From Amphiura filiformis (lineage: Eukaryota; Echinodermata; Ophiuroidea; Amphilepidida; Amphiuridae): a DNA stretch of 64,000 nt. The position numbers and the translations under genes were made by a program. Each line of letters opens with the position of its first letter. Within the stretch, counting starts at the first letter, position 1. Below are positions 32,422 through 63,600 of the stretch, one piece after another. The DNA is taken from positions 30,440,848-30,504,847 of the forward strand of contig NC_092641.1 in NCBI RefSeq assembly GCF_039555335.1, given 5' to 3'. The notes under the pieces are model-generated. The model saw only the letters and a program-made list of their open reading frames with translations, searched no databases and had not been told where the DNA came from.

Positions 32422-35400
32422 TTATTGATGGGTGCCATGCATTGGCATTTCATGGCTGGTACCCGTTTGACTGATGGATGCTAGCATTCGCATTGCAGGG
32501 CTGATACCTGTTGACAGTACAGGGCTAGTTGGCGCTTCTGAGCTGGTACCCGTTGTCAGTTCACGACTGGTACCCGATGACAATTCAGAGCTGGTGCTAG
32601 TAGTCAGTTCAAACCTGGTGCCCGTAGTCGGCTCAGAGCTAGTAACCACTGGTGGTTCAGAGCTAGTACCTATTGGCGATTCAGGGCTGGCACCCATTGA
32701 CATTTCAGAGCTAGTACCAGTCTGCAGTTCAGGGCAAGCAATGGGCTGCTCTTGCACAGAACTTGCTTCACCGGAACTTGTTTCTTCATTCACATTTATC
32801 TCAATGCATTCTAACTTTACAAATGGCAATGTTTTCTCTTCAATGAAATCTGTCTCCAACGTTTTCTGCATTTCTGCGCTATCTTGATCAACATCTGCCA
32901 CCTGAGCATCATTTCGCTTCCCACTTTCAACTACAGGTGTAGGGTTAGTTTCTAGCTTTTCTTCCAACTTTGATTTCAATTGCAGTGACACAGGCTCCTT
33001 TTTAGCCATTGAAGGGCCTGTCATACATTTTGTAACTGTTTTTTCTTTAATAGCAGGTACCTTCACTTTCATGATAACTTTTTTTTGGTTTTTTGTGCCT
33101 TTGTTCCTGGGACGGTACTGCTTAGGAGTTTTAGGAGGAGCAGTTTTTTCACCTGTTACTGTAGATTTTAATTTTGGTTTTTCACTTGGTGATGGCGGCG
33201 GTGACACACTATCCTGTGTCTCAGAAGTGATGTTTAGGCTTGGCTTCAGCAGTATTGGCACAATTTTCATATCAAGTGTTCCCGCTAGAAGTTTCACTTT
33301 GACCTCCTCCGGATTATTACTATTTACAAACATCTTGCGACTGAACTCAGAATCATACTGTGTCGGTTTGCTGTGCATGTGTGTGGCAAATATCTTTGCA
33401 GAATTGCTGCGAACAAAAACGTATGTGATTGTCCCTCGTTTAATCATGTTCAGAGTCGTCTGTGGCGATTGCGAGTACACAATGCACATGTTTGGATCTG
33501 CACCTGGGCTGGGAGATTGCGCTATGCTGAGATTTTTCGGAAGCACAGACGATGTACCTAATGCTTTTACCGTGATTTTCTCCTCCTCTTTCACGCTCTT
33601 GATGCTCCTTTCTGGAGATTTCACATAACGCCCTCTCTTTTGGCGAGGTTTAGGAGATTCGGAAAGGGATTCTGATAGAGTAGCGGTCTCACGTTTTGTC
33701 CCCACAAGTGCAATATATGGGCTGACATCTCCGACTGCTTCCTTGCAAGTAGGTAAACCGATTATCTTCTTTGCGAACGATTTCTGATTGTTTCCTTTCT
33801 TACTACGAGCCTCCAACTCCGCTTTAACAATTGCCATTTCCTGATTGTCAACCTCTTGACCAAGGACATCCTTAGTCTCTAATTCCTCCACTATATCCAA
33901 AGCAATTTCCATTGCATTCTTATTAATTGTACTCTTCAACTGTTCTATCTCTGCTCTCAATTTCACAGTTTCTTCGGAAATTTCCTTCTTAAACGTCTTT
34001 TCATCTTCATATGCGATACCATCAGATTCGGTTTCTTTCTTCATCCTCTTCTCTGTCGCTTCTGCTTGCTCCTTCTTTTTCGCCATAAACGATCTCGCTT
34101 TTCTTGCCAACTCTTCATCTGCTTCTTTTCTTAATCGGAATTCTTCTTGCCGCTTTTCTTTCAACTTCTGTGTGTACCATCGCCTTGCTTTTTTTATATC
34201 TTTGGCTGCTTCCGGATCCATTCCCATATCAATTACCTTTTCAATGAAGTTCTTATTGACCACAGCAAGCTGTGCTGTTTCCTCATCATGTTCCTTTTTC
34301 CGTTCTTCTTTAAACAAACTCTCTAGTTCGTCGAGCGTTTTCCCCACCAATTCCTCAGGTTTCATGCCGCGCCTCTTTGCTTCTTCCGTAAGAAACACTT
34401 CTCGTTTTTCCAGTCGTTTACACATTACGCAGTCTGTACCATGCAACTGGGTGATATGTTGAAATAACATCTCCTCTGTTTGAAATTCAATATTACAAAC
34501 TAAGCACTTGATCAACTGAATCTTTCTGACGGGGCGTGGCAACTGCGCTTTATGAATGATCTTCAGATGCTGGACTAGCTGGAATCGGGACCCATGAACG
34601 CAATGACACAAAGGGCACTTGATGGCCTTGGATCGGTCGTGCTTTGTAATGAAATGCATGTTTTGAGCCTTCTGTGATCTAAATGTCTTCTCGCAAATTT
34701 CGCACTTGTAACGCACCTCTCCAGTGTGGCTGGCGACGTGATCATCCCTTCGTACCTTTGAAGGGAAACCTTTGCCACAGTACGGACAGAACATTTTGAA
34801 TGCCCGCCTAATTTTATCATGCACCCCCCTAATATGCTTTGCCAGATTGTCTCGTGTCTTGAACTTTTTTTGACATTTAGTGCAGCTATGAAGTCTTATA
34901 TCACTATGCACAGCGGAATGTCGGCACAGTTTAGTGATGTCCTCATATTTTAAACCGCACTGGGCGCACATGTACCACTGTTTTGCAGTAATATGTCTCC
35001 TCTTGTTGGAGCTTGGATTTTTCCGCAGGCTCTGCTCTTGCTGTATGATATGCTCAGGTGGGTCGCAGCGTATGATTTTCACGCCTTTTCGCATCAGCTC
35101 ATCCTTGGTGCTTTCAAGCGGACGTTTCCGATTTGCCTTTTTGGGTGCAGTTCCGGAGTTGGTACTCCACGAATCATTGTCATTAGCTTCCATTGTACCA
35201 GGTTGGTTTGACATATTCAAGTTACCTTGCTGTAAAATATCATCATGCTGTGTATGCAGTAAGTCTACCATCGCAGCGGCAGCTGCCTCCGTCTCCGTGA
35301 ATTGTTCCAGTGAGATCGGCACCAACTTGGACTGCTTTTTAGCGACCACCTCCTTATCCACACAGAGCGCATTGTGGCGTTCCACGACAATGGCCAAGAT

Positions 35401-35694
35401 CTCTTCTAACGTCAACCCCTTCAGATGGACACAGTTGTATCCTCTTACGTGCGTATCTAGCAGTGGTTGCAGCCTGCTCGCTATATACTTTTGAATTGTC
35501 AAACGCAGCAGGTCGGACCAAAGGGGTACCGTCTGGGTCTCCATTTCCCTCATTTCCAGGGTGGCGATTTCGATTGGCGGAGGGTCAGTGGTGTGATCAC
35601 CCAGCTGGAGAATAAAGGGTAGATTTTGCTGCGGCTGTCCTCCATGATGCATATGATGAACGGGCGGTATCCAATGATTGCCAGAAGGATCCAT
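32422..35694 (-). CDS. ZNF-B: intact six-finger C2H2 protein with coiled coil
   Basis: An uninterrupted 1090-residue protein, probably a nuclear DNA-binding regulator. Residues 50-145 form a family domain shared with ZNF-A (TIQKYIASRLQPLLD, KGLTLEEILAIVVERHNALC). Six C2H2 fingers run from about 242 to 418 (YMCAQCGLKY, HSCTKCQKKF, MFCPYCGKGF, YKCEICEKTF, IKCPLCHCVH, IKCLVCNIEF). A strongly charged, probably coiled-coil region covers 430-635. Two copies of an unrecognised motif follow (CIVYSQSPQTTLNMIKRG near 737; MFVNSNNPEEVKVKLLAG near 788). Basic Pro/Lys-rich sequence (RPRNKGTKNQKK) precedes an octapeptide tail. The ATG at 35694 is chosen because the frame upstream runs only through a predicted intron acceptor. 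The coding region has no intron, unlike ZNF-A. Confidence 0.92.
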   Translation of the reverse strand: MDPSGNHWIPPVHHMHHGGQPQQNLPFILQLGDHTTDPPPIEIATLEMREMETQTVPLWSDLLRLTIQKYIASRLQPLLDTHVRGYNCVHLKGLTLEEILAIVVERHNALCVDKEVVAKKQSKLVPISLEQFTETEAAAAAMVDLLHTQHDDILQQGNLNMSNQPGTMEANDNDSWSTNSGTAPKKANRKRPLESTKDELMRKGVKIIRCDPPEHIIQQEQSLRKNPSSNKRRHITAKQWYMCAQCGLKYEDITKLCRHSAVHSDIRLHSCTKCQKKFKTRDNLAKHIRGVHDKIRRAFKMFCPYCGKGFPSKVRRDDHVASHTGEVRYKCEICEKTFRSQKAQNMHFITKHDRSKAIKCPLCHCVHGSRFQLVQHLKIIHKAQLPRPVRKIQLIKCLVCNIEFQTEEMLFQHITQLHGTDCVMCKRLEKREVFLTEEAKRRGMKPEELVGKTLDELESLFKEERKKEHDEETAQLAVVNKNFIEKVIDMGMDPEAAKDIKKARRWYTQKLKEKRQEEFRLRKEADEELARKARSFMAKKKEQAEATEKRMKKETESDGIAYEDEKTFKKEISEETVKLRAEIEQLKSTINKNAMEIALDIVEELETKDVLGQEVDNQEMAIVKAELEARSKKGNNQKSFAKKIIGLPTCKEAVGDVSPYIALVGTKRETATLSESLSESPKPRQKRGRYVKSPERSIKSVKEEEKITVKALGTSSVLPKNLSIAQSPSPGADPNMCIVYSQSPQTTLNMIKRGTITYVFVRSNSAKIFATHMHSKPTQYDSEFSRKMFVNSNNPEEVKVKLLAGTLDMKIVPILLKPSLNITSETQDSVSPPPSPSEKPKLKSTVTGEKTAPPKTPKQYRPRNKGTKNQKKVIMKVKVPAIKEKTVTKCMTGPSMAKKEPVSLQLKSKLEEKLETNPTPVVESGKRNDAQVADVDQDSAEMQKTLETDFIEEKTLPFVKLECIEINVNEETSSGEASSVQEQPIACPELQTGTSSEMSMGASPESPIGTSSEPPVVTSSEPTTGTRFELTTSTSSELSSGTSRELTTGTSSEAPTSPVLSTGISPAMRMLASISQTGTSHEMPMHGTHQ
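32480..32765 (-). repeat. 24-bp minisatellite encoding the ZNF-B octapeptide tail
   Basis: About eight units of 24 bp encode SSEPTTGT-like octapeptides (SSEMSMGA, SPESPIGT, SSEPPVVT, SSEPTTGT, RFELTTST, SSELSSGT, SRELTTGT, SSEAPTSP). The matching array in ZNF-C (60750-60970) has one unit fewer and other substitutions. Confidence 0.9.
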
Positions 35695-35712
35695 TTTGTA
35701 CAAGTTGGTTCT
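35695..35712 (-). other. ZNF-B 5' UTR start after an intron acceptor
   Basis: On the minus strand a pyrimidine tract, CTTTTTTGTCTTGCAG, ends at 35711, so an exon would begin at 35710 with 16 bases of leader before the ATG. The same acceptor and leader are conserved in ZNF-C (exon start 63971). A non-coding first exon further upstream is therefore likely, but I cannot place it. Confidence 0.65.
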
Positions 35713-35721
35713 GCAAGACAA

Positions 35722-36486
35722 AAAAGTTGAAAATTAATTAAAATGTTGACAGAAGTTGACCAGGGATATTCATGAGACAAAGTATTGACTGTGGTTTTCA
35801 GTTTTTTTAAGTAGCACACATTACCAAGCAATTATTATTATCTAGGCCAACTTTTCCAAAACATTATAGGCTAGCTTTGCCAGAGTAACAATCTAAAAAT
35901 GAACAAAGGAAGTTTGTATACAAAGGTCAAATGCCCTGTTCTTATGGACAGTGGCCAATGCTGTTACCATAGCAACAGTTCACATTCCACTCTCACTGAG
36001 TAATTTGCATAGGTGTAGATCCCGGGTGATAGGGGTGGGATAAATCCCCCCAATATTTTGCCAGGGGGGATGGTCCATACAATCATCACCCTCCCCCCAT
36101 GTTGAATCCTTCGTGTGGGTTTCTGACCAAATTAAGGTCTCATTATTTGGCCATTTTAGCCACCAAAGCCCATTTTTTCGCGCTTCGTTCGAATTTATTC
36201 CACTTTTGCACAATATTTCATCAGTTTAGCTTCAAAATGGCACCGTTTTTTGCATTTGTACCAGAAACTGATTCTGTCGCCAAAAGGTGCCTGATTCTCT
36301 ATATTTCAAGAATTTTTTCCAACCCAATCCCTCCCAATGTCAAAAAGAAATCTACGCCACTGGCAATTTTTGGTATAATATAAACCATGTGCAGTTCTGA
36401 CAAAAGAGCTTGGGGAAATGATATATCCAGTAATCTCATCAGTCGCAGATCCAGGATTTTTGAAAAGGGGGGCACAAACTTAGAAT
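35722..36486. other. Upstream of ZNF-B; dispersed repeat
   Basis: No gene is visible. From about 36015 to 36370 the sequence (ggatggtccatacaatcatc, ttctgaccaaatta, cacttttgcacaatatttca) is an inverted copy of the repeat at 48545-48895. A relative of its outer end lies near 52365-52460. Confidence 0.55.
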
Positions 36487-37038
36487 CATCTGCGCTTGGA
36501 GCAGCACACGTCGCACTTGTGGGACGAGGGGGGCTGTCTGAGGGGATGTGCCAACCTCAGAAGTGAGAAACTTGAAGACCTAATTGAAGCTATTTGGTAG
36601 ACCATTTTGGCACTATTATTGTGTAAAATGTTAATTTGAAAAAGCCGAAAATTTGCCCAATGACAGTCCAATTGAAGTCATTTGTCGACAAGCTTGCACT
36701 ATTATTGTGTACATTATTCCTTTAAACATAAAGGGTCAGGTGTCCAAAACAAAAGCGAAAGGGTTAACTAGCTTCTTTATGCATACGCAGGGGTGTCTGA
36801 GGGGGATGTGCCCCCCTGAGAAGTGAGAGACTTTTGCAAAATGAAGACATAATTGAAGCGATTTGGTGGACCATTTTGGCACTATTATTGTTTTAATTTG
36901 AAAAAGCCGAAAATTTGTGAAATGACGGCCCAAAAAGCTGAAGTCATTCATCGACAATTTTTCTCTATTAATGTGTAAATTATTGCTTTTTTGCAAAATG
37001 AAGGCCTAATTGAAAGCATTTGGTGGAAAATTTTAATA
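36487..37038. repeat. Internally repeated element, host of the Penelope insertion
   Basis: Three diverged direct copies of a unit with aattgaagcgatttggtgga, ccattttggcactattattg and tttgaaaaagccgaaaattt lie head to tail. The sequence resumes beyond the Penelope-like insertion at 38864 (gaagtcattcttcaac, acataaagggcctggtgtcc), so one repeat was split by that insertion. Confidence 0.7.
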
Positions 37039-37101
37039 CTATTATTTGAATCAGTGGGTTTTTAGCGGGTTCGCCGTCGGACAAGTTTAGAACTGTCAAG
37101 C

Positions 37102-37131
37102 TTTCGTCAGGAGTAGCTCTGACTTCTTCAG
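37102..37131 (-). ncRNA. Possible degenerate hammerhead core
   Basis: On the Penelope sense strand, CTGAAGA (37131-37125) is followed by one A, a 5-bp stem GTCAG/CTGAC with an 8-base loop, and then GAAA (37105-37102). This is the box-stem-box order of a hammerhead, and hammerheads are known from Penelope-like elements. The extra A and the unresolved stems I and III make it uncertain. Confidence 0.35.
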
Positions 37132-37180
37132 GACAAAGTACCTAAGAATGAAACATGTAGACCGCCCCTAGTCTACTGAT

Positions 37181-37550
37181 GACTCTGAAAAGAGTCGTTC
37201 ACTGAAGACTGCCCCTTGTCAACAGAGAACAAGCAGATCTCGCCTATCTGCTAATATAAAGGTTTTGGTGGCTCTGAAAAGAGCCGTTTGCTGAAGACTG
37301 CCCTTGTCTACAGAAACAAGCAGATCTCGCCTATCTGCTGAATTTGTAAGTTTTGGTGGCTCTGAAAAGAGCCGTTTGCTGAAGACTGCCCCTTGTCAGC
37401 AGAAACAAGCAGATCTCGCCTATCTGCTGATTTTGTAAGTTTTGGTGGCTCTGAAAAGAGCCGTTCACTGAAGACTGCCCCTTGTCAACAGAAAACAAGC
37501 AGACCTCGCCTATCTGCTAAATTAAAGGTTTGTTCGCTCTGAGGAAGAGC
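37181..37550 (-). ncRNA. Tandem array of histone-type 3' stem-loops
   Basis: Five units of 88-89 bp. On the minus strand units two to four (hairpins at 37270-37285, 37358-37373, 37447-37462) contain GGCTCTTTTCAGAGCC, preceded by AAC and followed by ACCA. That is the consensus of the replication-dependent histone mRNA 3' stem-loop bound by SLBP. Unit one (37181-37196) has GACTCTTTTCAGAGTC, where both sides of one pair changed together. Unit five (37535-37550) keeps GCTCT/AGAGC around an altered loop. Each unit has a second hairpin, AGCAGAT/ATCTGCT with loop. A U7-type purine-rich downstream element is not obvious. On the plus strand the same stem has a GAAA tetraloop. Confidence 0.75.
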
Positions 37551-37686
37551 TGTTCAATGAAGACTGCCCCTTGTCAACAGAGAACATGTAGACTGCATAT
37601 ACTGTAATAGAAGTATACGGCTTACCAGGAACCGTTTGGCCACTTATGGACCGATTGATTGATTGTATGCACAATGAGCGTTTATA

Positions 37687-38290
37687 TCACTTAATTGCGG
37701 ACGTGGTACAGATTAGCGGCTCTGTGATTGGTTGTTTGAAAATAGAGCGCGCCGCATACGATGTGATAAGATTAGCGACTCTGTGATTGGTTGTTTGAAA
37801 ATAGAGAGCGCCACATACCCGGGGCCACATACGACTGATGTCTTTGCCGTCATTTCTATTGATAGTAGAAGTTTCATTAACTCTGATTTCCAACGCTTCA
37901 CGGGTCAACCTCATCCCCAAGTTAGAAACTTGTGCCAGTTTTGTTGTTTCGTCCCACAGAGGTTCATGGCCTTCTTTGCAAGCATGTTCAGCTAATGCCG
38001 AGCCTTCTTCTTTCTTTTGTCTTGTGGCTCTTCGGTGTTCAGATATTCTGACCTTTAGTGGTCGTTTGGTTTGGCCTATGTATTGCTCACCACAACTGCA
38101 AGGTATAGAGTACACATGGTGCACGATCCTTGGGCAGAGGATCTTTTGGGTGGCTTAGGATGTCTCTTAATTTGGCCGACCTAGAGTAGAATGTTTTGAC
38201 CCCTGATCGGTTTAGAAACCGACAGATTTTGTCTGATACACCTTTGATATATGGCATGAAGGTAACGCCTTTGTGTTCATCGTCCACCAA
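37687..38290 (-). pseudogene. Penelope GIY-YIG endonuclease region, frameshifted
   Basis: The downstream frame (38124 to 37687) encodes HHVYSIPCSCGEQYIGQTKR, then LKVRISEHRRA and SALAEHACKEGHE: the GIY-YIG signature (VYSI..YIGQT) with the Cys and His positions usual in Penelope-like elements. The preceding frame (from about 38290) encodes GVTFMPYIKGVSDKICRFLN and reaches KDRAPCV, where a one-base shift near 38124 separates the two. The C-terminal part contains a duplicated segment of about 70 bp (37712-37815, GCGGCTCTGTGATTGGTTGT). Confidence 0.85.
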
Positions 38291-38334
38291 TTCTTCTGAT
38301 CGTTCTCCTGTCTGTTCAGTGTTCGATTTACCTG

Positions 38335-38580
38335 GATTAGCGTAGCAAAATGCTACTCACAATTTTGTAATTGCTACTCAAATCTGAAAATGAGTAGCAT
38401 TTTTTGCTACACATAAAAATATACGAAAATCGATCACTGGCCACTGACTTGAACTGAAAATGGAACATTCAGGATTAGCATGTTGCAAAATGCTACTCAC
38501 AATTTTGGAATTGCTACTCAAATCTGAAAGTGAGTAGCATTCTTTGCTACACAAAAAAATATACGAAAATCGATCACTGT
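38335..38580. repeat. Insertion with 138-bp direct duplication inside the Penelope copy
   Basis: Two direct copies of a 108-bp segment (starting GATTAGC, with aaaatgctactcacaatttt and aaaatcgatcactg) begin at 38335 and 38473. Each contains gtagca/tgctac inverted words. It separates the RT end from the GIY-YIG part of the coding region. Confidence 0.8.
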
Positions 38581-38854
38581 GTCTGTTTCTTGATTGCCTT
38601 GTGAATGAGGTTTGAGGGATAGCCATTCTTGTTCAACGCTTTTTCAATGTGTTTGAGTTCGTCTTTTCGATGTTCTTCATCACACAGAGTCAGTGCTCTG
38701 TGAACCAGTGTATTGACAACACTGTTCTTGGCAGACATATGGTGACTAGAGTTAAAATGAAGATATTGATCAGTATGAGTGGGTTTTAGGTATATGGCGA
38801 AACTCAAGCTAGTGTCTGATCTCTGCACTTTGACATCAAGGAAAGGTATGCCTA
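38574..38854 (-). pseudogene. Penelope RT C-terminal fragment
   Basis: The frame encodes PFLDVKVQRSDTSLSFAIYL, KPTHTDQYLHFNSSHHMSAK and SVVNTLVHRALTLC, the region just after the catalytic motifs in Penelope-like reverse transcriptases (xKPTHTDxYLxFxSxH). The catalytic core itself is lost to 5' truncation at 38851. Confidence 0.85.
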
Positions 38855-38994
38855 TTATTTGAAGTCATTCTTCAACAAATTTTCACTATTGTGTCAAATT
38901 GCTTGAAACATAAAGGGCCTGGTGTCCAAAGCAGAAGTGAAAATGGCAACTTCTTTATGTATACGCAGGAGGGTGTCTGAGGAGGGATGCAAAA

Positions 38995-39185
38995 ATGGCT
39001 TGTTATTTTTCAAAGAAGTAACAAAATCAGTGATAGATGAAAATTTAAGGGTCTTTGGGTGACAGATCGAAAGGAAATATGGCCGGGTCTTTGGGTGACA
39101 GAGCATGTGTGCTCATAAAAAAATATGGGGTCTTTGGGTGACAGTGATGTTGAAAAAGGGGGTCTTAAAGGAGGATTTTGTGATC
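38995..39185. repeat. Triple GGTCTTTGGGTGACAG repeat
   Basis: The 16-mer GGTCTTTGGGTGACAG occurs at about 39048, 39087 and 39129, spaced about 40 bp. It follows the split repeat and precedes a stretch without recognisable content. Confidence 0.7.
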
Positions 39186-45431: not shown

Positions 45432-45526
45432 ATTATTGTAGGTATGCTAGATGAATTCAAATTTGCCATCAAACTGCATCATTTTATATATCAAATTAAA
45501 GCCCTTGAGTAAACAAAGCTAAAACT

Positions 45527-46397
45527 CTGATACCTCTGGTATCGGGCAATTTGCTGATGATACATTTCTTTATCATGCAATTTACAATGCTAATGATGTA
45601 AGGGATTTACAAATGGATCTTGACAAGCTTTCGGTTTGGTCGTCTCGTAATTCACTTCACTTGAATCCTACTAAATGTAAATTTATATCTATCACTCGTA
45701 AACGTACTTCATATCCATCAGTGTACAGTATTAACAACATCAATCTTGATCAGGTAAATACCCCGGGGGTAAATAATCTTCCCCTCTTGGGTGTCACCAT
45801 CTCAGATAAGCTTAATTGGGATGCTCATGTTAAGGATGTTATAGCAAGAAGCAACAAACTTCTTGGTTTTATTCGCCATGTGGCCGGGGAATCTCCCCCA
45901 GAGGTTCTCCTCCAATTATATCAGACCATGGTCTTGCCCATCCTCGATTACTGCTCCCCTGTGTGGATGCCCCACACAAAGCGTCTCAAAATGCTCTTGA
46001 ACGCTGCGTTCAAAGGACAGCCACCAGAGCTATTCTCCATCAGAAGCGTCGCGAGGAGGAGTACAATGTTCGTTTGGAGCGTCTTGACCTCAGTTATTTG
46101 TCCCAAAGACGTGAATACATGTCCATTTCACTTGTTTCCAAATGCCTCCTCAATGTTGACTGCTGCAATGCTATGCCTGCTTTAAATAAAATCCGTCCAA
46201 ATAGTAGGCATCCCGATCACCTTATTTTTCACCATCTCAAAGCCAAAACTGATGCTTTTCTTTATCATTCCATCCAACGCTTCCCCAAAATATGGTCTGA
46301 CCTCCCCCGCCACATCACTGATATTTATTTGTGCAATAGCTTTAACTGCTTCAAATCCCACTTGAGAGACCACTTTCAGTCCATTCAAGAAATTTAA
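45527..46397 (+). pseudogene. LINE RT C-terminal half, frameshifted
   Basis: It begins at the RT catalytic box (GQFADDTFLYHAI), continues with LDKLSVWSSRNSLHLNPTKC and LGVTISDKLNWDAHV, typical of the CR1 group, and reaches SPVWMPHTK. A frameshift near 45965-45990 moves to a frame with NALERCVQRTATRAIL and ends at the stop at 46397. Only the C-terminal half of RT is present. Confidence 0.88.
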
Positions 46398-53220: not shown

Positions 53221-55202
53221 TATTCACCTGCACAAGATGTACTGACTTTTATAGTTCAATACAAAATTAACAAAAATTAGAACTTTATGCTTGATTTAGA
53301 AGTTGACTTCAAATACGTCAATAACCGATGTCACTTTTACTCAATAATTACATCTACAGGGATGCCAGTTTTCAGGCAATTTCCTGATTTCCTACTTTTT
53401 ATTACTCCAATTTTCTGCACTGGAACTACTTCTAACCCGGGCCCCCAAACTTTTGAAAACCTATTATTATTTATTATGTACTATGTATGAATCACTGCAC
53501 TTGGTCTAGCAAGTGCCCCTGTTGACTTAAAATCCCAATAGCAACAAAGTGTCACACATATGTGAACCATTGTAACATTCAAATCTTGAAACTGATAGGC
53601 CAGTCCTATAAATCTTTTGGCCCAAATGAACCTTGAGAATGTTGGCTTAACACTTGACCAATGACAAGGGTATTACATGGGTTTAACATACAACATAATA
53701 AGATTCGCTGCCAGGTCCATAGTCAGGAATTTTTCTTGGGGTTGAGCTAGAATGCAGACCTTACCTTCCTTTTCCAAGAGTAATCTTCATTCTGGCCAAA
53801 AGCAGACCTTTAACCCGGGCCTTTAACTCCCCCTCCCCCTTATTCTACAATTGATTTTTGGAGCCCCTGTGCCCCTGTTGACTTTCCCAAGTCACAATTT
53901 AAGAGTCCCCTTTCAATGCATGGTGGCCATGGAAAATGTATATTGCAGCCACACTACCCCCAAAAAAAAAGCAAGCATATGCTGTATTGGTCAAAAAAAA
54001 GGTCTAAATTTTGGGATGGTCCACTTTTCACATTATTTTGTTTTGATGGATCCAAGTAAGTGAAAACATTGGATCCAAAACATAATAATGATAAAATAGG
54101 TTGCTTTACGTTACGAGTATTTGATTCAACTACGTCTTGTCCAATATTTTAAATTTATAGCTCGACCAATAAATAAGGGCTCAATCGGTCCAATTTTATA
54201 TTGAAATTGTCCCCCTCCCCCCACCTCAAAAAAAAAATGTCTACTTTTTTCCAAATCTGCACCCCTAAAATATAAATCCTGCGTACAGGCTTGGTATTTT
54301 GCTGCGATTCACCTTGCTTGTACTCCCTTTTCATGCTAAAATATAAATTTGTTACTGGTTTTGCAAGACTTTATACGATACTCTTGCAAAATTGTTTTGT
54401 GATTTTCACAATATTGTATGTGCATGTTAGAATAAAACAACCAAAGAGGTTAAAGAACAATGTTAAATCCATTACAAATAATTGCCAAATTAAATTTACA
54501 GGTAAATTTAAATCAATTAATTAAATTAAAGAAATTTAAAACAAAATATTGTATGTGGCGATAAATAAACCTGGTTTTACAAACAAGAGTATCCTATGTG
54601 TATATGTACAATGTTCTTGTACTCACACAAATTTGACCTCCAGTTTAAATTCACATGAACCTGAATTTAGATATGAATTCCATCTATTTTTCGTAATTTA
54701 AGAAGTAATTTTAAAGTTATGTACTTCAAAATTAGCTTATCTCAATCTGTAAAAAATACATTTTTGCCATATTTGTCACATAATATACGTCCTTTCACTC
54801 ACAGTGCATATACATATAATATGAAAAACCACTCTAAATTCATACTCCATATATGTGACACGATCTGGTCCATGAGGGCCAAAGGAGGCATTTTTGAAAA
54901 TTGAGTTACTATAATCATTACCTTCTACAAACATTAGGCTATCATATACTGAAGACACCAAAAGTCTAGCATACTTGGTTCTAAAGTTACGAAGTTTTGT
55001 GACGTCTATTTTCTTATATTTTATTGTTTTTTACCTCCATATTTTTGCCTTTATCTCAATTTCAAATTTGCCCGCTTTAGACCAGATTGTGTCACATATG
55101 TGGACAACACTTTTTTAATACAAAAGATGCATCAACTCTTAAACCATGGTTGTAAAATAATTCCCAACAATTCTTTAACATGGATGGACCCTTTATATTA
55201 AT

Positions 55203-55573
55203 CAGTGGCGTAGCCAGGATTTTGGAACCGAGAGGGCACAACTTGTAAATGTACCGACGAAATATTTTTTGCCAACGTAAGTTGTGATTTGTTGACCCAA
55301 AATTTTTTGCATGGTTTGAAAAAGTGAAGAGCAAAAAAAAAAAAAGGGATAATAAGCGGTACCGACATAAAACAACAATTTTTTCATGTATAATTCAATT
55401 TAATTCACAATTTTTCAGCATTTTTTTTTTATTTTCCCCTTTTAACTTTCACCCTGGGTAAAAAAATAGTCTATTGTTAACCCAATTTTTTTCACCAACG
55501 CCTTCCTTCTATCTACCGACGGCCTTACATGAACCGACGGCCATGCCCCCCCCCCCCACTGGCTACGCCACTG
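55203..55573. mobile_element. hAT-like MITE, CAGTGGCGTAGCCAG family, in unit 1
   Basis: Perfect 15-bp TIRs CAGTGGCGTAGCCAG/CTGGCTACGCCACTG and the 8-bp duplication atattaat (55195-55202, 55574-55581). The partner site near 29620 lacks it. Such CAGTGGCG ends are common in animal hAT-derived repeats. Confidence 0.93.
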
Positions 55574-55720
55574 ATATTAATGTGTTACAAAGATTTTTGC
55601 AAGAAAAATAATATATTACACCTGTTCTCATTATGTAATTTGTAAAATTGTCGCATTTTTTCCACTCCCAAGTGCTGTGTTGTAACTTGATTGTTTTGCC
55701 CCCCCCCCCCTCTAGTGGGT

Positions 55721-56011
55721 CAAAAAAGAACCTTTTTGATCAGGTTCTTCAAAGAACCCTTATCACAAAGGTTCTTTCAATTGAAGAACCATAGGATCCA
55801 TATATGGGACAAAATTGAAGAACTGTTCAATAAAGAACCTTTGTGATATGGTTCCTTTAAAGTACCCTGTCACAAGGTTCTTCTGAGACCCTTTAGGCTC
55901 CTTGAACCCCAATGTAAAGGTTCCCTGGAAGAACCCTTGAGGGTTCCATATACTGGGACAAGGTCAAGAACCCTTAGGGGTTCCAACTTGCACCCTTTTT
56001 TCTAAGAGTGT
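55721..56011. repeat. AGAACC/GGTTCT-rich element in unit 1
   Basis: About fifteen AGAACC or GGTTCT/GGTTCC words in both orientations over 290 bp, ending in cccttttttctaagagtgta. Dense AGAACC arrays with a CTAAGAGTGT end resemble, from memory, repeats in teleost genomes. Confidence 0.75.
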
Positions 56012-56129
56012 AATATGCTCGATGTATGGCACAGTATACTATGGAAGAACTAAACAATTTACTTCAGTAAGCTGTAGAAATCTCTCCTTGTGTGTGAGGA
56101 GATAATGGTCAGCAGTTTACTGCAGTAGT

Positions 56130-56345
56130 GTTATTTCAATGCATTGGAATAGGAATTGAATTGAATTTGATTTTGGCCATTTTTCATTTCAATTCAGTGA
56201 ATTGAATCGAAATGTTTGTTTCTTTTCATTTCAATTCAATGCATTGAATCGAAATGCTTTTATTCTTTCATTTCAATTCAATGCATTGAAATGAAATGTG
56301 TTTTTTGTTCATTTCAATTCAATTCATTGAATCGAAAATGCATAC
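56130..56345. repeat. AATTCAATGCATTGAAT palindromic minisatellite, unit 1
   Basis: Three to four units of about 57 bp, each with ATTTCAATTCAATGCATTGA, a palindromic core. Confidence 0.85.
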
Positions 56346-58472
56346 ATGTATTTTGATTCTGCCATAAAAAATAAACTTTCTCCCTGAACTGCTTTTCGCC
56401 AAATACCCGATTACACTTTTGTGGATGGGGCTCTTCATGTTTGTATGTTTTAAAAGCACTCGATAGTAAGCACGTACATGTATGCTAACTATCAAGTTTT
56501 TACGGTATTCACCTGCACAAGATGTACTGACTTTTATAGTTCAATACAAAATTAACAAAAATTAGAACTTTATGCTTGATTTAGAAGTTGACTTCAAATA
56601 CGTCAATAACCGATGTCACTTTTACTCAATAATTACATCTACAGGGATGCCAGTTTTCAGGCAATTTCCTACTTTTTATTACTCCAATTTTCTGCACTGG
56701 AACTACTTCTAACCCGGGCCCCCAAACTTTTGAAAACCTATTATTATTTATTATGTACTATGTATGAATCACTGCACTTGGTCTAGCAAGTGCCCCTGTT
56801 GACTTAAAATCCCAATAGCAACAAAGTGTCACACATATGTGAACCATTGTAACATTCAAATCTTGAAACTGATAGGCCAGTCCTATAAATCTTTTGGCCC
56901 AAATGAACCTTGAGAATGTTGGCTTAACACTTGACCAATGACAATGGTATTACATGGGTTTAACATACAACATAATAAGATTCGCTGCCAGGTCCATAGT
57001 CAGGAATTTTTCTTGGGGTTGAGCTAGAATGCAGACCTTACCTTCCTTTTCCAAGAGTAATCTTCATTCTGGCCAAAAGCAGACCTTTAACTCCCCCTCC
57101 CCCTTATTCTACAATTGATTTTTGGAGCCCCTGTGCCCCTGTTGACTTTCCCCAGTCACAATTTAAGAGTCCCCTTTCAATGCATGGTGGCCATGGAAAA
57201 TGTATATTGCAGCCACACTACCCCCCAAAAAAAAAAGCAAGCATATGCTGTATTGGTCAAAAAAAGGTCTAAATTTTGGGATGGTCCACTTTTCACATTA
57301 TTTTGTTTTGATGGATCCAAGTAAGTGAAAACATTGGATCCAAAACATAATAATGATAAAATAGGTTGCTTTACGTTCACAGTATTTGATTCAACTACGT
57401 CTTGTCCAATATTTTAAATTTATAGCTCGACCAATAAAATAAGGGCTCAATCGGTCCAATTTTATATTGAAATTGTCCCCCTCCCCCCACCTCAAAAAAA
57501 AAATGTCTACTTTTTCCAAATCTGCACCCCCTAAAATATAAATCCTGCGTACAGGCTTGGTATTTTGCTGCGATTCACCTTGCTTGTACTCCCTTTTCAT
57601 GCTAAAATATAAATTTGTTACTGGTTTTGCAAGACTTTATACGATACTCTTGCAAAATTGTTTTGTGATTTTCACAATATTGTATGTGCATGTTAGAATA
57701 AAACAACCAAAGAGGTTAAAGAACAATGTTAAATCCATTACAAATAATTGCCAAATTAAATTTACAGGTAAATTTAAATCAATTAATTAAATTAAAGAAA
57801 TTTAAAAACAAAATATTGTATGTGGCGATAAATAAACCTGGTTTTACAAACAAGAGTATCCTATGTGTATATGTACAATGTTCTTGTACTCACACAAATT
57901 TGACCTCCAGTTTAAATTCACATGAACCTGAATTTAGATATGAATTCCATCTATTTTTCAGTAATTTAAGAAGTAATTTTAAAGTTATGTACTTCAAAAT
58001 TAGCTTATCTCAATCTGTAAAAAATACATTTTTGCCATATTTGTCACATAATATACGTCCTTTCACTCACAGTGCATATATACATATAATATGAAAAACC
58101 ACTCTAAATTCATACTCCATATATGTGACACGATCTGGTCCATGAGGGCCAAAGGAGGCATTTTTGAAAATTGAGTTACTATAATCATTACCTTCTACAA
58201 ACATTAGGCTATCATATACTGAAGACACCAAAAGTCTAGCATACTTGGTTCTAAAGTTACGTAAGTTTTGTGACGTCTATTTTCTTATATTTTATTGTTT
58301 TTTACCTCCATATTTTTGCCTTTATCTCAATTTCAAATTTGCCGCTTTAGACCAGATTGTGTCACATATGTGGACAACACTTTTTTAATACAAAAGATGC
58401 ATCAACTCTTAAACCATGGTTGTAAAATAATTCCCAACAATTCTTTAACATGGATGGACCCTTTATATTAAT

Positions 58473-58844
58473 CAGTGGCGTAGCCAGGATTTTGGAACCG
58501 AGAGGGCACAACTTGTAAATGTACCGACCGAAATATTTTTTGCCAACGTAAGTTGTGATTTGTTGACCCAAAATTTTTTTGCATGGTTTGAAAAAGTGAA
58601 GAAAAAAAAAAAAAGGGATAATAAGCGGTACCGACATAAAACAACAATTTTTTCATGTATAATTCAATTTAATTCACAATTTTTCAGCATTTTTTTCAAA
58701 TTCGCCCCTTTTTTCTGTCACCCTGGGTAAAAAAATAGTCTATTGTTAACCCAATTTTTTTTCACCAACGCCTTCTATCTACCGACGGCCTTACATGAAC
58801 CGACGGCCATGACAAGCGGGCGCCCCCCACTGGCTACGCCACTG
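58473..58844. mobile_element. hAT-like MITE copy in unit 2
   Basis: Duplicated copy of 55203-55573 with the same TIRs and the same atattaat flanks, so it was inherited by duplication, not inserted independently. Confidence 0.93.
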
Positions 58845-58984
58845 ATATTAATGTGTTACAAAGATTTTTGCAAGAAAAATAATATATTACACCTGTTCTC
58901 ATTATGTAATTTGTAAAATTGTCGCATTTTTTCAACTCCCAAGTGCTGTGTTGTAACTTGATTGTTTTGCCCCCCTTTAGAGGT

Positions 58985-59273
58985 TCAAAAAAGAACCTTT
59001 TTGATCAGGTTCTTCAAAGAACCCTTATCACAAAGGTTCTTTCAATTGAAGAACCATAGGATCCATATATGGGACAAAATTGAAGAACTGTTCAATAAAG
59101 AACCTTTGTGATATGGTTCCTTTAAAGTACCCTGTCACAAGGTTCTTCTGAGACCCTTTAGGCTCCTTGAACCCCAATGTAAAGGTTCCCTGGAAGAACC
59201 CTTGAGGGTTCCATATACGGGACAAGGTCAAGAACCCTTAGGGGTTCCAACTTGCACCCTTTTTTCTAAGAGT
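58985..59273. repeat. AGAACC/GGTTCT-rich element in unit 2
   Basis: Duplicated copy of 55721-56011; differs at a few positions. Confidence 0.75.
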
Positions 59274-59389
59274 GTAATATGCTCGATGTATGGCACAGTA
59301 TACTATGGAAGAACTAAACAATTTACTTCAGTAAGCTGTAGAAATCTCTCCTTGTGTGTGAGGAGATAATGGTCAGCAGTTTACTGCAG

Positions 59390-59905
59390 TAGTGTTATTT
59401 CAATGCATTGGAATAGGAATTGAATTGAATTTGATTTTGGCCATTTTTCATTTCAATTCAGTGAATTGAATCGAAATGTTTGTTTCTTTTCATTTCAATT
59501 CAATGCATTGAATCGAAATGCTTTTATTCTTTCATTTCAATTCAATGCATTGAAATGAAATGTGTTTTTTGTTCATTTCAATTCAATTCATTGAATCGAA
59601 AATGCATACATGTATTTTGATTCTGCCATAAAAAATAAACTTTCTCCCTGAACTGCTTTTCGCCAAATACCCGATAAAATGTATCAGTGTTGGTAATAAG
59701 AATTGAATTTGAATATGAATTGAATTCAAATGCTATGAATTGGAATTGAAATTGGTTAGCAGTTAATTTCAATGCATTGAATTGGAATTGAATCAACATG
59801 ACTTAAACCAGAGAAGAATTGAATTGAAATTGCATCAAAATAATTTTATAAAATAAGAATTGAATCTGAATTGAACTGAAATTCATTTTCTGAATCGAAA
59901 TAACA
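59390..59905. repeat. AATTCAAT/ATTGAATT repeat block
   Basis: The palindromic minisatellite of unit 2 (59390-59605) continues beyond the duplication end into related aattgaattg-rich sequence up to about 59905. That outer part exists only once. Confidence 0.8.
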
Positions 59906-60636: not shown

Positions 60637-63600
60637 CTACATTTGATGATGGTTATTATTAATGGGTGCCAGCATTGGCATTTCTGGGCTGGTACCTGTT
60701 TGACTTAAGGATGCTAGCATTTGCATTGCAGGGCTGATACCCGTTGACAGTACAGGGCTGGTATCCGTTGGCGCTTCTGAGCTGGTACCCGTTGTCAATT
60801 CAGAGCTTGTGCTCGCAGCCAATTCAAACTTGGTGCCCGTAGTTGGCTCAGAACTAGTAACCACTGGCAGTTCAGAGCTAGTACCTATTGGCGATTCAGG
60901 GCTGGCACCCATTGACATTTCAGAGCTAGTACCAGTCTGCGGTTCAGGGCAAGCAACGGGCTGCTCTTGCACAGAACTTGCTTCACCGGAACTTGTTTCT
61001 TCATTCACATTTTTTCCAATGCCTTCTAACTTTATAAATGGCACTGTTTTCTCTTCAATGAACTCTGACTCCAATGTTTTCATCATTCCTGCACTATCTT
61101 GGTCAACATCTGCCACCTGAGTATTATTTCTCTTCCCATTATCAGCTAGAGGTGTAGGGTTAGTTTCTAGCTTTTCTTGCAACATTGCAAGTGATACAGG
61201 CTCCCTTTTAGCCATTGAAGAGCCCGTCATACTTCTTGTAACTGTTTTTTCTTTAACAGCAGGTACCTTCACTTTCATGGTAACCTTTTTGGTTCCACCA
61301 CCTTTTTGGCGCTGGTCCTTAGGCACGGCAGAAACAAACTTGCCTTTGTGTCTGGGTTGGTACTCATTACGGTACTGTTTAGGAGTTTTAGGAGCAGCAG
61401 TTTGTTTTCCTGTTACTGTAGATTTTGATTTTTCACTTTGTGAGGGAGACGCACTATCCCGTGTCTCATGGGTGATGTTTAGGCTTGGCTTCAGCAGTAT
61501 TGGCACAATTTTCATATCGAGTGTTCCCGCTAGTAGTTTCACTTTGACCTCCTCCGGATTATTACTATTTACAAACATCTTGCGACTGAACACTGAATTA
61601 CTCTGTGTCGGTTTACTACGCATGTGTGTGGCAAAATCCGTGCAGAATCACTGCGAACAAAAATGTATGTGATCGTCCCTCGTTTAATCATGTTCAGAGT
61701 CGTCTGTGGCGATTGCGAGTACACGATGCACATGTTTGGATCTGCACCTGGGCTTGGAGTTTGCGCTATGCTGAGATTTTTTGGAAGCACAAACGATTTA
61801 CCCAATGCTTTTACCGTGATTTTCTCCTCCTCTTTCACACTCTCAATGTTCCTTTCCGGAGATTTTGAATACCGCCCTCTCTTTCGGCAAGGTTTAGGAG
61901 ATTTGGAAGGGGATTCTGGTCGAGTCGCAGTGACACTTTTTGTCGATACAAGCGCAACATATGGGTTGACATCACCAACTGCTTCCTTGCGTAGTAGGTA
62001 AACCGATTATCTTCTTTGCGTAACGATTTCTGATTGTTTCCTTTCTTGTTACGAGCCTCCAACTCCGCTTTAACGATTGCCATTTCCTGATTGTCAACCT
62101 CTTGACCAAGGACATCCTTAGTTTCTAATTCCTCCACTATATCCAAAGCAATTTCCATTGCATTCTTATTAATTGTACTCTTCAACTTTTCTATCTCTGC
62201 TCTCAGTTGCGCATTTTCCTCGACAACTTCCTTCTTAAACTTCTTTTCATCTTCGATATCATCAGATTCGGTATCATCTGAATCGGATACCATTTCTTTC
62301 TTTAGCCTCTTCTCCATCGCTTCGGCTTGCTTCTTCTTTTTCGCCATAAACGATCTTGCTTTTCTCGCCAACTGTTCATCTGCTTCTTTTCTTAATCGCA
62401 ATTCTTCTTGCCGCTTTTCTTTCTTCTTCTGTATGTACCATTTCCTTGCTTTTTTAATATCTTTGGCTTCTTCCGGATCCATTCCCTGATCAATTACCTT
62501 TTCAATGAAGAGGTGATTGACCGCAGCAACCTGTGCTGCTTTTTCATTAAATTCCTTTTTCTGCTCTTCTTTAACCCACCTCTCTAGTTCATCAAGCGTT
62601 TTCCCCACCAATTCGTCAGATTTCATACCGCGTCTCTGCGCTTCTTCCGTAAGAAACACCTCTCGTTTTTCCCGCCGTGTACACGATTCGCAGTCTGTAC
62701 CATGCAACTGGGTGATATGTTGAAATAACATCTCCTCAGTTTGAAAATCGATATTGCAGACTAAGCACTTGATCGACCGCACATTTTTGATGGGGCGTGG
62801 CACCTGCGCTTTATGATTGATCTTCAGATGCCTGACCAGCTCGCATCGGGATCCATGAACGCAATGACACAAAGGGCACTTGATAGCCTTGGATTGGTCG
62901 TGCTTTACAACAAAATGCATGTTTTGAGCCTTCTTTGATCTAAATCCCTTCTCGCAAATTTCGCACTTGTAACGCACCTCTCCTGTGTGAATTGCGATGT
63001 GATCGTCCCTGCGAACCTTCTGATGGAATCCTTTTCCACAATACGGACAGAACATTTTGAACTCTGGCTTGTAAGTTTTATCATGCACCGTCCTAACATG
63101 CTTTGTCAGCATGTCTCGCGACTTGTACTTTTTTTGACATTTAGTGCAGCTGTGCGTTCTTAGATCGCTATGCAGAGCGGAATGTCGAGCCAGTTTACTG
63201 ATATCCCTCAATTTTACACCGCATTCAGCACACATGAACCACTGTTTTGCCGGTATATGTCTCCTCTTGTTGGAGCTTGGATTTTTCCACAGACTCTGCG
63301 CTTGCTGTATGATATGCTCAGGTGGGTCGCAGCGTATGATTTTCACGCCTTTTCGCATCAGCTCATCCTTGGTGCTTTCGGGTGGTCTTTTCCGATTCAC
63401 CTTTTTGGTACCAGGTGCAGTTCCCGAGTTGGTACTCCATGAATCATTGTCATTAGTTTCCATTGTTCCAGGTTGATTTGAGTTACCTTGCTGCAAAATA
63501 TCCTCATGCTGTGTATGCAGTAAGTCTACCATCGCGGCGGCAGCTGCCTCAGTCTCCGTGAATTGTTCGAGTGAGATCGGTACCAACTTGGACTGCTTTT

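Follow-up and report, generated by a model that had tools for sequence, protein, structure and literature searches.

Histone-type RNA stem-loops in a tandem array within a Penelope-like insertion of Amphiura filiformis

To our knowledge, how the RNAs of Penelope-like elements (PLEs) are stabilised, exported and ended is poorly understood. Hammerhead ribozymes of these elements were reportedly described by Cervera and De la Pena in 2014, and structured RNA is said to lie in their pseudo-LTRs. Two members of the Penelope/Poseidon clade with a GIY-YIG endonuclease, PAc from Anolis carolinensis and Penelope from Adineta vaga, offer the closest comparison for the locus considered here. According to the sections of its description available to us (PMC11167929), neighbouring PAc copies in a tandem have a pseudo-LTR between them, with a hammerhead ribozyme lying across the start of the ORF; reverse transcription initiates at an internal site, an AC-rich stem-loop in the ORF start that is also the end of genomic copies, most commonly at 111-118, and a tail between two sites is described. 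The corresponding sections on A. vaga (PMC3846280) give pseudo-LTR lengths of 181-218 bp, report a palindrome in some, and describe for one element a pseudo-LTR that takes in a putative TATA box and the first 12 codons, or 22 if the tail is counted; these sections mention no tandem hairpin array.

Here we analysed a 64,000-nucleotide stretch of A. filiformis DNA (the window) and describe an insertion that, set against the available sections of those two accounts, is alike in its endonuclease, presumed pseudo-LTR and short target duplication, and may share with this clade a hammerhead-like motif at the presumed ORF start and an AC-rich insertion end (Table 1). It also carries a tandem array of histone-type stem-loops, whereas the printed 126-nt leader of PAc has, by pattern, no histone-type stem-loop on either strand and, by a simple count, one six-pair hairpin (PMC11167929). 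No account of a Penelope-like or other retroelement with a histone stem-loop, or of Histone3 in transposable elements, was found in the open-access PMC papers searched, in agreement with a first-pass annotation of this DNA, which knew of no such array in PLEs. As far as the literature search reaches, this would be the first retroelement described with a histone 3' signal.

Table 1. Features of the insertion and its array (window coordinates).
Feature	Coordinates	Strand	Details
Whole insertion, 5'-truncated Penelope-like element	37051..38851	-	1,801 bp; bounded by 12-bp duplication; GIY-YIG domain; hammerhead-like motif; AC-rich end
Target site duplication, element 5' end	38852..38863	.	12 bp, exact CTATTATTTGAA
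C-terminal reverse transcriptase fragment (presumed)	38574..38851	-	downstream of catalytic motif; open frame; element 5'-truncated here
Two repeats	38334-38439, 38472-38579	-	106 + 108 bp, 93.5% alike (self-BLAST); interrupt reverse transcriptase region
GIY-YIG endonuclease frame	37687..38154	-	PF01541, E 4.7e-4, 20.8 bits, under 22.6 cutoff
Promoter-like stretch of presumed pseudo-LTR	37681..37818	-	tandem 60-bp duplication, two AACCAATCA boxes, then TATAAA
Tandem array of three-hairpin RNA module	37150..37605 (about)	-	five units, plus a sixth copy of the first hairpin at the 3' edge
Unit 5 hairpin, degenerate	37535..37551	-	five pairs kept, outer pair lost, five-base loop
Unit 4 histone-type stem-loop	37447..37462	-	GGCTCTTTTCAGAGCC, read 37462-37447; RF00032, 34.8 bits
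Unit 3 histone-type stem-loop	37358..37373	-	GGCTCTTTTCAGAGCC, read 37373-37358; RF00032, 37.1 bits
Unit 2 histone-type stem-loop	37270..37285	-	GGCTCTTTTCAGAGCC, read 37285-37270; RF00032, 34.9 bits
Unit 1 stem-loop	37181..37196	-	16.6 bits, below Histone3 cutoff
Sixth first hairpin (GTAGAC/GTCTAC)	37157..37176	-	3' edge; compared with units 1-4, both bases replaced in two pairs
Hammerhead-ribozyme-like motif	37093..37136	-	presumed pseudo-LTR/ORF-start junction; found by hammerhead filter
Element 3' end, presumed ORF start	37051..37092	-	AC-rich close AAAAACCCACTGA
Target site duplication, element 3' end	37039..37050	.	12 bp, exact CTATTATTTGAA

The first-pass annotation had read the insertion as a PLE with the array inside a 12-bp target duplication, and both statements hold: the insertion is truncated at its 5' end and has the short, exact target duplication found in such elements, with CTATTATTTGAA on both flanks. 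CTATTATTTGAA is the sole 12-mer common to 37000-37080 and 38820-38900, and is also found once at 2582. Only 25 shared 12-mer pairs at 1.5-2.2 kb separation occur in the whole window, and a chance pair at both element flanks is therefore unlikely (by our estimate, below 1%). A GIY-YIG endonuclease at the C-terminus is weakly indicated by the PF01541 match, which drops to 19.8 bits for the longer frame. The linker upstream of the endonuclease lies in another frame, showing that the copy is broken. All evidence on the array comes from one dead element copy. The open frame next to the truncation is one that we take, by PLE motifs, to be reverse transcriptase; Pfam returned weak, unrelated matches only for it. 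The repeat pair that interrupts this region carries hairpin-like inner repeats (AATGCTACTC...GAGTAGCATT) and is perhaps a separate insertion.

Three of the ten window ORFs run against Pfam encode C2H2 zinc fingers, which fits an animal host. The endonuclease, reverse transcriptase and linker proteins had no relative in viral contigs, nor the endonuclease in prokaryotic genome contigs, in scans that reach close relatives only, and tblastn with the endonuclease as query returned chance-level matches only from plasmids and phages (1 and 4 records, best E 0.4). Exact patterns for the stem-loop with its flanks, for hairpin 1 and for two tandem stem-loops had 0 matches in viral contigs, as did the stem-loop with flanks in prokaryotic genome contigs; these collections being viral and prokaryotic, the nulls say little on animals. 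Elsewhere in the window, a zinc-finger ORF and a second ORF (32422-35733 and 60637-61647, minus strand) each overlap a minisatellite, and the 45-bp and 24-bp units of these (32426-32718, 60659-60933) are similar; the two are perhaps paralogous. A weak RVT_1 match on the plus strand at 45523-46182 (E 1.4e-4, under cutoff) is perhaps another retroelement fragment, and GGTCTTTGGGTGACAG occurs three times within 39050-39144 (at 39050, 39086 and 39129) and is absent from the rest of the window.

The array lies 3' of the GIY-YIG region on the minus strand, which is the sense strand of the element, in units that the first-pass annotation had placed 88-89 bp apart; the coordinates (hairpin-to-hairpin spacing 89, 89, 88 and 89) and TRF (period 89, 4.5 copies) agree with it. 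Its extent had been given as 37181-37550, which covers the five units and falls short of the repeats, since these reach further on both sides and include a partial sixth unit; beyond that description, each unit contains two further hairpins. The 16-mer GGCTCTTTTCAGAGCC occurs exactly in three units and its count is 0 in 100 dinucleotide shuffles of the window. As had been quoted correctly, it is preceded by AAC and followed by ACCA in units 2, 3 and 4. When both strands of the window were scanned against 4,227 Rfam families, Histone3 (RF00032) reached its gathering score of 34 in three of five units, on the minus strand, with E-values of 3.4e-07 to 2.3e-06 for the whole window; besides Histone3, no family reached its cutoff, and within 37000-37870 the listing up to E 5 held just one further match, to mir-24 at chance level. 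The covariance model, run on both strands, thus bears out histone-type stem-loops in units 2 to 4; unit 1 scores below the cutoff and the unit 5 hairpin is absent from the listing up to E 5. The earlier description of these two was accurate, with five pairs and a changed loop in unit 5 and a stem in unit 1 (GACTCT/AGAGTC) that is kept by a paired change of its second pair from G-C to A-U. The likeness to Histone3 spans the loop and the 3' flank besides the stem and is confined to the sense strand. The histone-type hairpin array is a real feature, its Histone3 match being far above chance by Rfam E-value, and we observed directly the hairpins, the match and their position relative to the endonuclease and the element end.

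A four-base loop is needed for binding by the histone stem-loop-binding protein SLBP. The available part of one study (PMC10388802) states that SLBP also requires guanine at position 7, in the second stem pair from the bottom. Units 2-4 present both G7 and a four-base loop. Unit 1 has A in place of G7, its compensatory change having kept the structure and lost the base that SLBP reads, and unit 5 has the guanine together with a lost outer pair and a five-base loop. At most three of the hairpins therefore look SLBP-competent. Compared with the stem-loop of histone mRNA (RF00032), these three are alike in the 16-mer, the UUUC loop, the 3' ACCA and an above-cutoff score; unlike it, the signal recurs here five times in tandem, with two other hairpins attached to every copy, and lies in a presumed leader rather than at the end of a message, with no clear downstream element and with presumed template read-through.

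Folding of units 1, 2 and 4 yields a first hairpin (H1, GCAGAT/ATCTGC), a second with a longer stem and internal loops (H2), and the histone-type stem-loop. The minimum-energy fold of unit 3 keeps the stem-loop and pairs the H1-H2 part otherwise, and unit 5 does not adopt the three-hairpin fold. Relative to dinucleotide shuffles, folding energies of units 1-4 are lower by 2.0-3.0 SD on the minus strand and by 2.7-4.7 SD on the plus strand; that of unit 5 is indistinct from its shuffles. Folding energy gives no preference for the sense strand, and if anything the plus strand is favoured. In a hand-gapped alignment of 23 pairs, from which the unalignable H1 of unit 5 was left out and to which the sixth H1 was added, seven pairs vary: four of them, two of which lie in H1 and one each in H2 and the stem-loop, are doubly changed with pairing kept in one or more units, and each of the other three is broken in a single unit. 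As many doubly changed pairs arose in 0.62% of 20,000 shuffles (0.56% on a rerun with all rows checked), although these shuffles take the units as unrelated and template switching between hairpin arms also yields paired changes. An automatic alignment without the sixth H1 gave one doubly changed pair, a number reached by 101 of 500 shuffles (20%), and 97.2% of its cells are paired, which 20 of 500 shuffles matched. G-U pairs on the minus strand number two in the hand-gapped alignment, against no A-C mispairs (the form that a plus-strand G-U pair would take here), or four against one when the unalignable first hairpin of unit 5 is included. Covariation among the units is suggestive only.

Conservation within the array is relevant to two further explanations. 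Among units 1-4, variable columns amount to 2 of 16 in the stem-loop, 1 of 21 in H1 and 7 of 34 in H2; over all five units they are 6 of 17 in the stem-loop and 8 of 34 in H2, and the longest invariant run (columns 41-52) sits in H2. The histone-type stem-loop is not the best-conserved part of the unit, and, as is usual for tandem arrays, similarity is higher among internal units than among those at the edges. A covariance model of the unit gave nine matches in the window; five are the units themselves, all at E 2.3e-18 or below, and the remaining four (E 0.31-0.67) we take as chance. It is quite improbable, in our judgement, that the module acts for a protein of the element itself or in RNA packaging, its third hairpin resembling the histone signal by convergence or coincidence: three hairpins per unit, doubly changed pairs in each of them and an invariant run in H2 rather than the stem-loop would suit such a role, whereas the Histone3 match takes in loop and flank letters and has an E-value of 3.4e-07 when the window is scanned with all families. 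Rather more weight, within the range of the unlikely, goes to a single capture of a histone gene 3' end by the pseudo-LTR, with the sequence around that end multiplied by unequal exchange into a functionless array. A match far beyond chance that extends into the 3' flank is what capture would leave, and unequal exchange is consistent with similar internal units and with a hairpin whose conservation does not exceed that of the rest. Against it stand the paired changes seen in each of the three helices, although template switching between arms can make them, and the sense orientation, although orientation alone is a one-in-two matter. No histone-coding remnant was seen by eye upstream of the stem-loops in three frames. 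We also considered and rejected the array units as decayed hammerheads, there being no core by eye and no Rfam hammerhead listed there up to E 5.

A 14-bp direct repeat (13 of 14 identical) flanks the array at 37152-37165 and 37583-37596 and could be a target duplication, in which case the array would be a satellite inserted into this copy after transposition and uninformative on the family. The other repeat pair, at 38334-38579, likewise interrupts this copy. Both 14-mers, however, fit the phase of the unit when aligned to it, unit 4 has a third and weaker copy, and the 14-mer at the 3' edge aligns as an arm of another first hairpin. They therefore look like edge units, and a later satellite insertion is very improbable.

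Past the array, the insertion continues for 130 bases beyond the last hairpin (37181 to 37051), and about 640 bases, mostly array, separate the endonuclease frame from the element end. Read from 37136 to 37093, this stretch contains a five-pair stem I, a CTGAAGA core, an extra base, a five-pair stem II, GAAA and a two-pair, loopless stem III. Our hammerhead filter, devised after the candidate had been seen, passes this single site in the window and 0 sites in 20 windows shuffled in 500-base blocks. A looser filter with no stem I minimum picks the PAc hammerhead, which has the same one-base extension and the same two-pair, loopless stem III; its stem I of three pairs, by our count, fails the stricter filter, as compared with five pairs here. 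Rfam gives no hammerhead call at 37093-37136, its best match there being RF00008 in another register (14.2 bits, E 1.6). Unlike the hammerheads of PLEs, the array units lack a hammerhead core, and the hammerhead-like motif is separate from them and downstream. An open frame runs from about 37142 to the element end, and the insertion ends, in AAAAACCCACTGA, about 75 bases past the base that matches the A of the PAc AUG. In PAc, AACAACCCTGTGA begins at ORF base 77. It is paired with AAAAACCCACTGA by a loose global alignment, which leaves the hammerheads out of register.

By comparison with PAc, the array is most likely leader within the pseudo-LTR, between the endonuclease and the hammerhead-like motif and ORF start of the next tandem copy. 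If the insertion was made like PAc copies, the array would be leader or intercistronic RNA upstream of an ORF start. Since reverse transcription starts at the future 3' end of the insertion, the template would have run at least 130 bases past the last hairpin, uncut in the array; under the PLE insertion scheme, this copy's template would have been read through. Such read-through would argue against an obligatory histone-type 3' end and be compatible with a mix of cut messenger and uncut template. Other RNAs of the element family could end at the array.

The first-pass annotation had suggested that the array may form the 3' end of the element's RNA, a proposal that the array's position upstream of the hammerhead-like motif and the AC-rich end does not favour, with a template that, if PAc-like, ran 130 bases on. 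In a modified form, RNA entering the next pseudo-LTR would be cut at the stem-loops into a non-polyadenylated messenger, and read-through RNA only would serve as template. The sense-strand Histone3 matches and the position of the array after the endonuclease frame would fit such 3'-end formation, as would the sense strand of the 1,801-bp insertion, in which AATAAA, ATTAAA and AGTAAA are all absent, an absence fairly often expected by chance. In histone pre-mRNA, U7 pairs with the downstream element. The U7 snRNP cleaves 4-5 nt past the stem-loop, according to the part of PMC7026596 available. Within 50 bases after each hairpin, AAAGAG was found in 0 of 5 cases and the best purine 9-mer scored 7 of 9, which may speak against cleavage, although this core is that of mouse and may not be the host's; the putative downstream element of C. 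elegans is AATCC, with no purine run, in the part of PMC1924863 available. We regard this modified form as unlikely, also because the template of the insertion would have passed all five hairpins and because a pseudo-LTR promoter, if real, would have its own RNA cut in the leader, short of the ORF.

Such a promoter upstream of the array is plausible from PLE biology; the motifs in this part of the insertion are CCAAT at 37790 and 37731 and TATAAA at 37686. The two CCAAT boxes with TATAAA were set aside as evidence for a histone-like promoter, as the motif set is not distinctive in the window: the same loose set occurs at four other window sites, two of which are copies of one duplication. Separately, 54141-56337 and 57406-59601 form an apparent segmental duplication about 3.26 kb apart, sharing CCAAT/TATAAA clusters, a 42-bp tandem array (56181, 59445) and a palindrome (55743, 59008).

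Taken together, we tentatively propose, with a probability of roughly 0.38, that the array is an SLBP-docking leader and not an obligatory terminator. The pseudo-LTR would contain an array of a module of about 89 nt with three hairpins, the third of histone-mRNA type, which would act as the 5' leader of RNA begun in the pseudo-LTR and as a spacer in RNA crossing tandem copies. Up to three intact hairpins per leader may recruit host SLBP in dividing or germ-line cells, and docked SLBP may aid stabilisation, export or translation of an RNA without a poly(A) tail, with transcription continuing through the array to the hammerhead and the reverse-transcription start site. In this scheme we infer the promoter, the absence of poly(A), SLBP binding and any benefit to the element. 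The docking leader is supported by sense-only Histone3 matches, by their extension into loop and 3' flank, by the location of the array between endonuclease and hammerhead-like motif with a PAc-like AC-rich end beyond, by the presumed read-through, by the doubly changed pairs and the G-U count, and by the lack of common polyadenylation signals. It is weakened by the single dead copy, a stem-loop that is not the best-conserved part, weak automatic covariation, the changes in units 1 and 5, the plus-strand folding energy, ordinary promoter motifs and the missing Rfam hammerhead call.

A broader version, which we consider doubtful, is that a Penelope-like family took over the histone stem-loop as a leader module, SLBP conferring histone-type S-phase control and cleavage in the array separating messenger from read-through template. 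Even if the array were functionless, a histone signal would have been captured and multiplied inside a mobile element. If true, an array of histone-type stem-loops in the leader would provide a concrete, testable answer on the fate of Penelope-like RNA, and would tie the expression of a retroelement to DNA replication via one host protein, SLBP.
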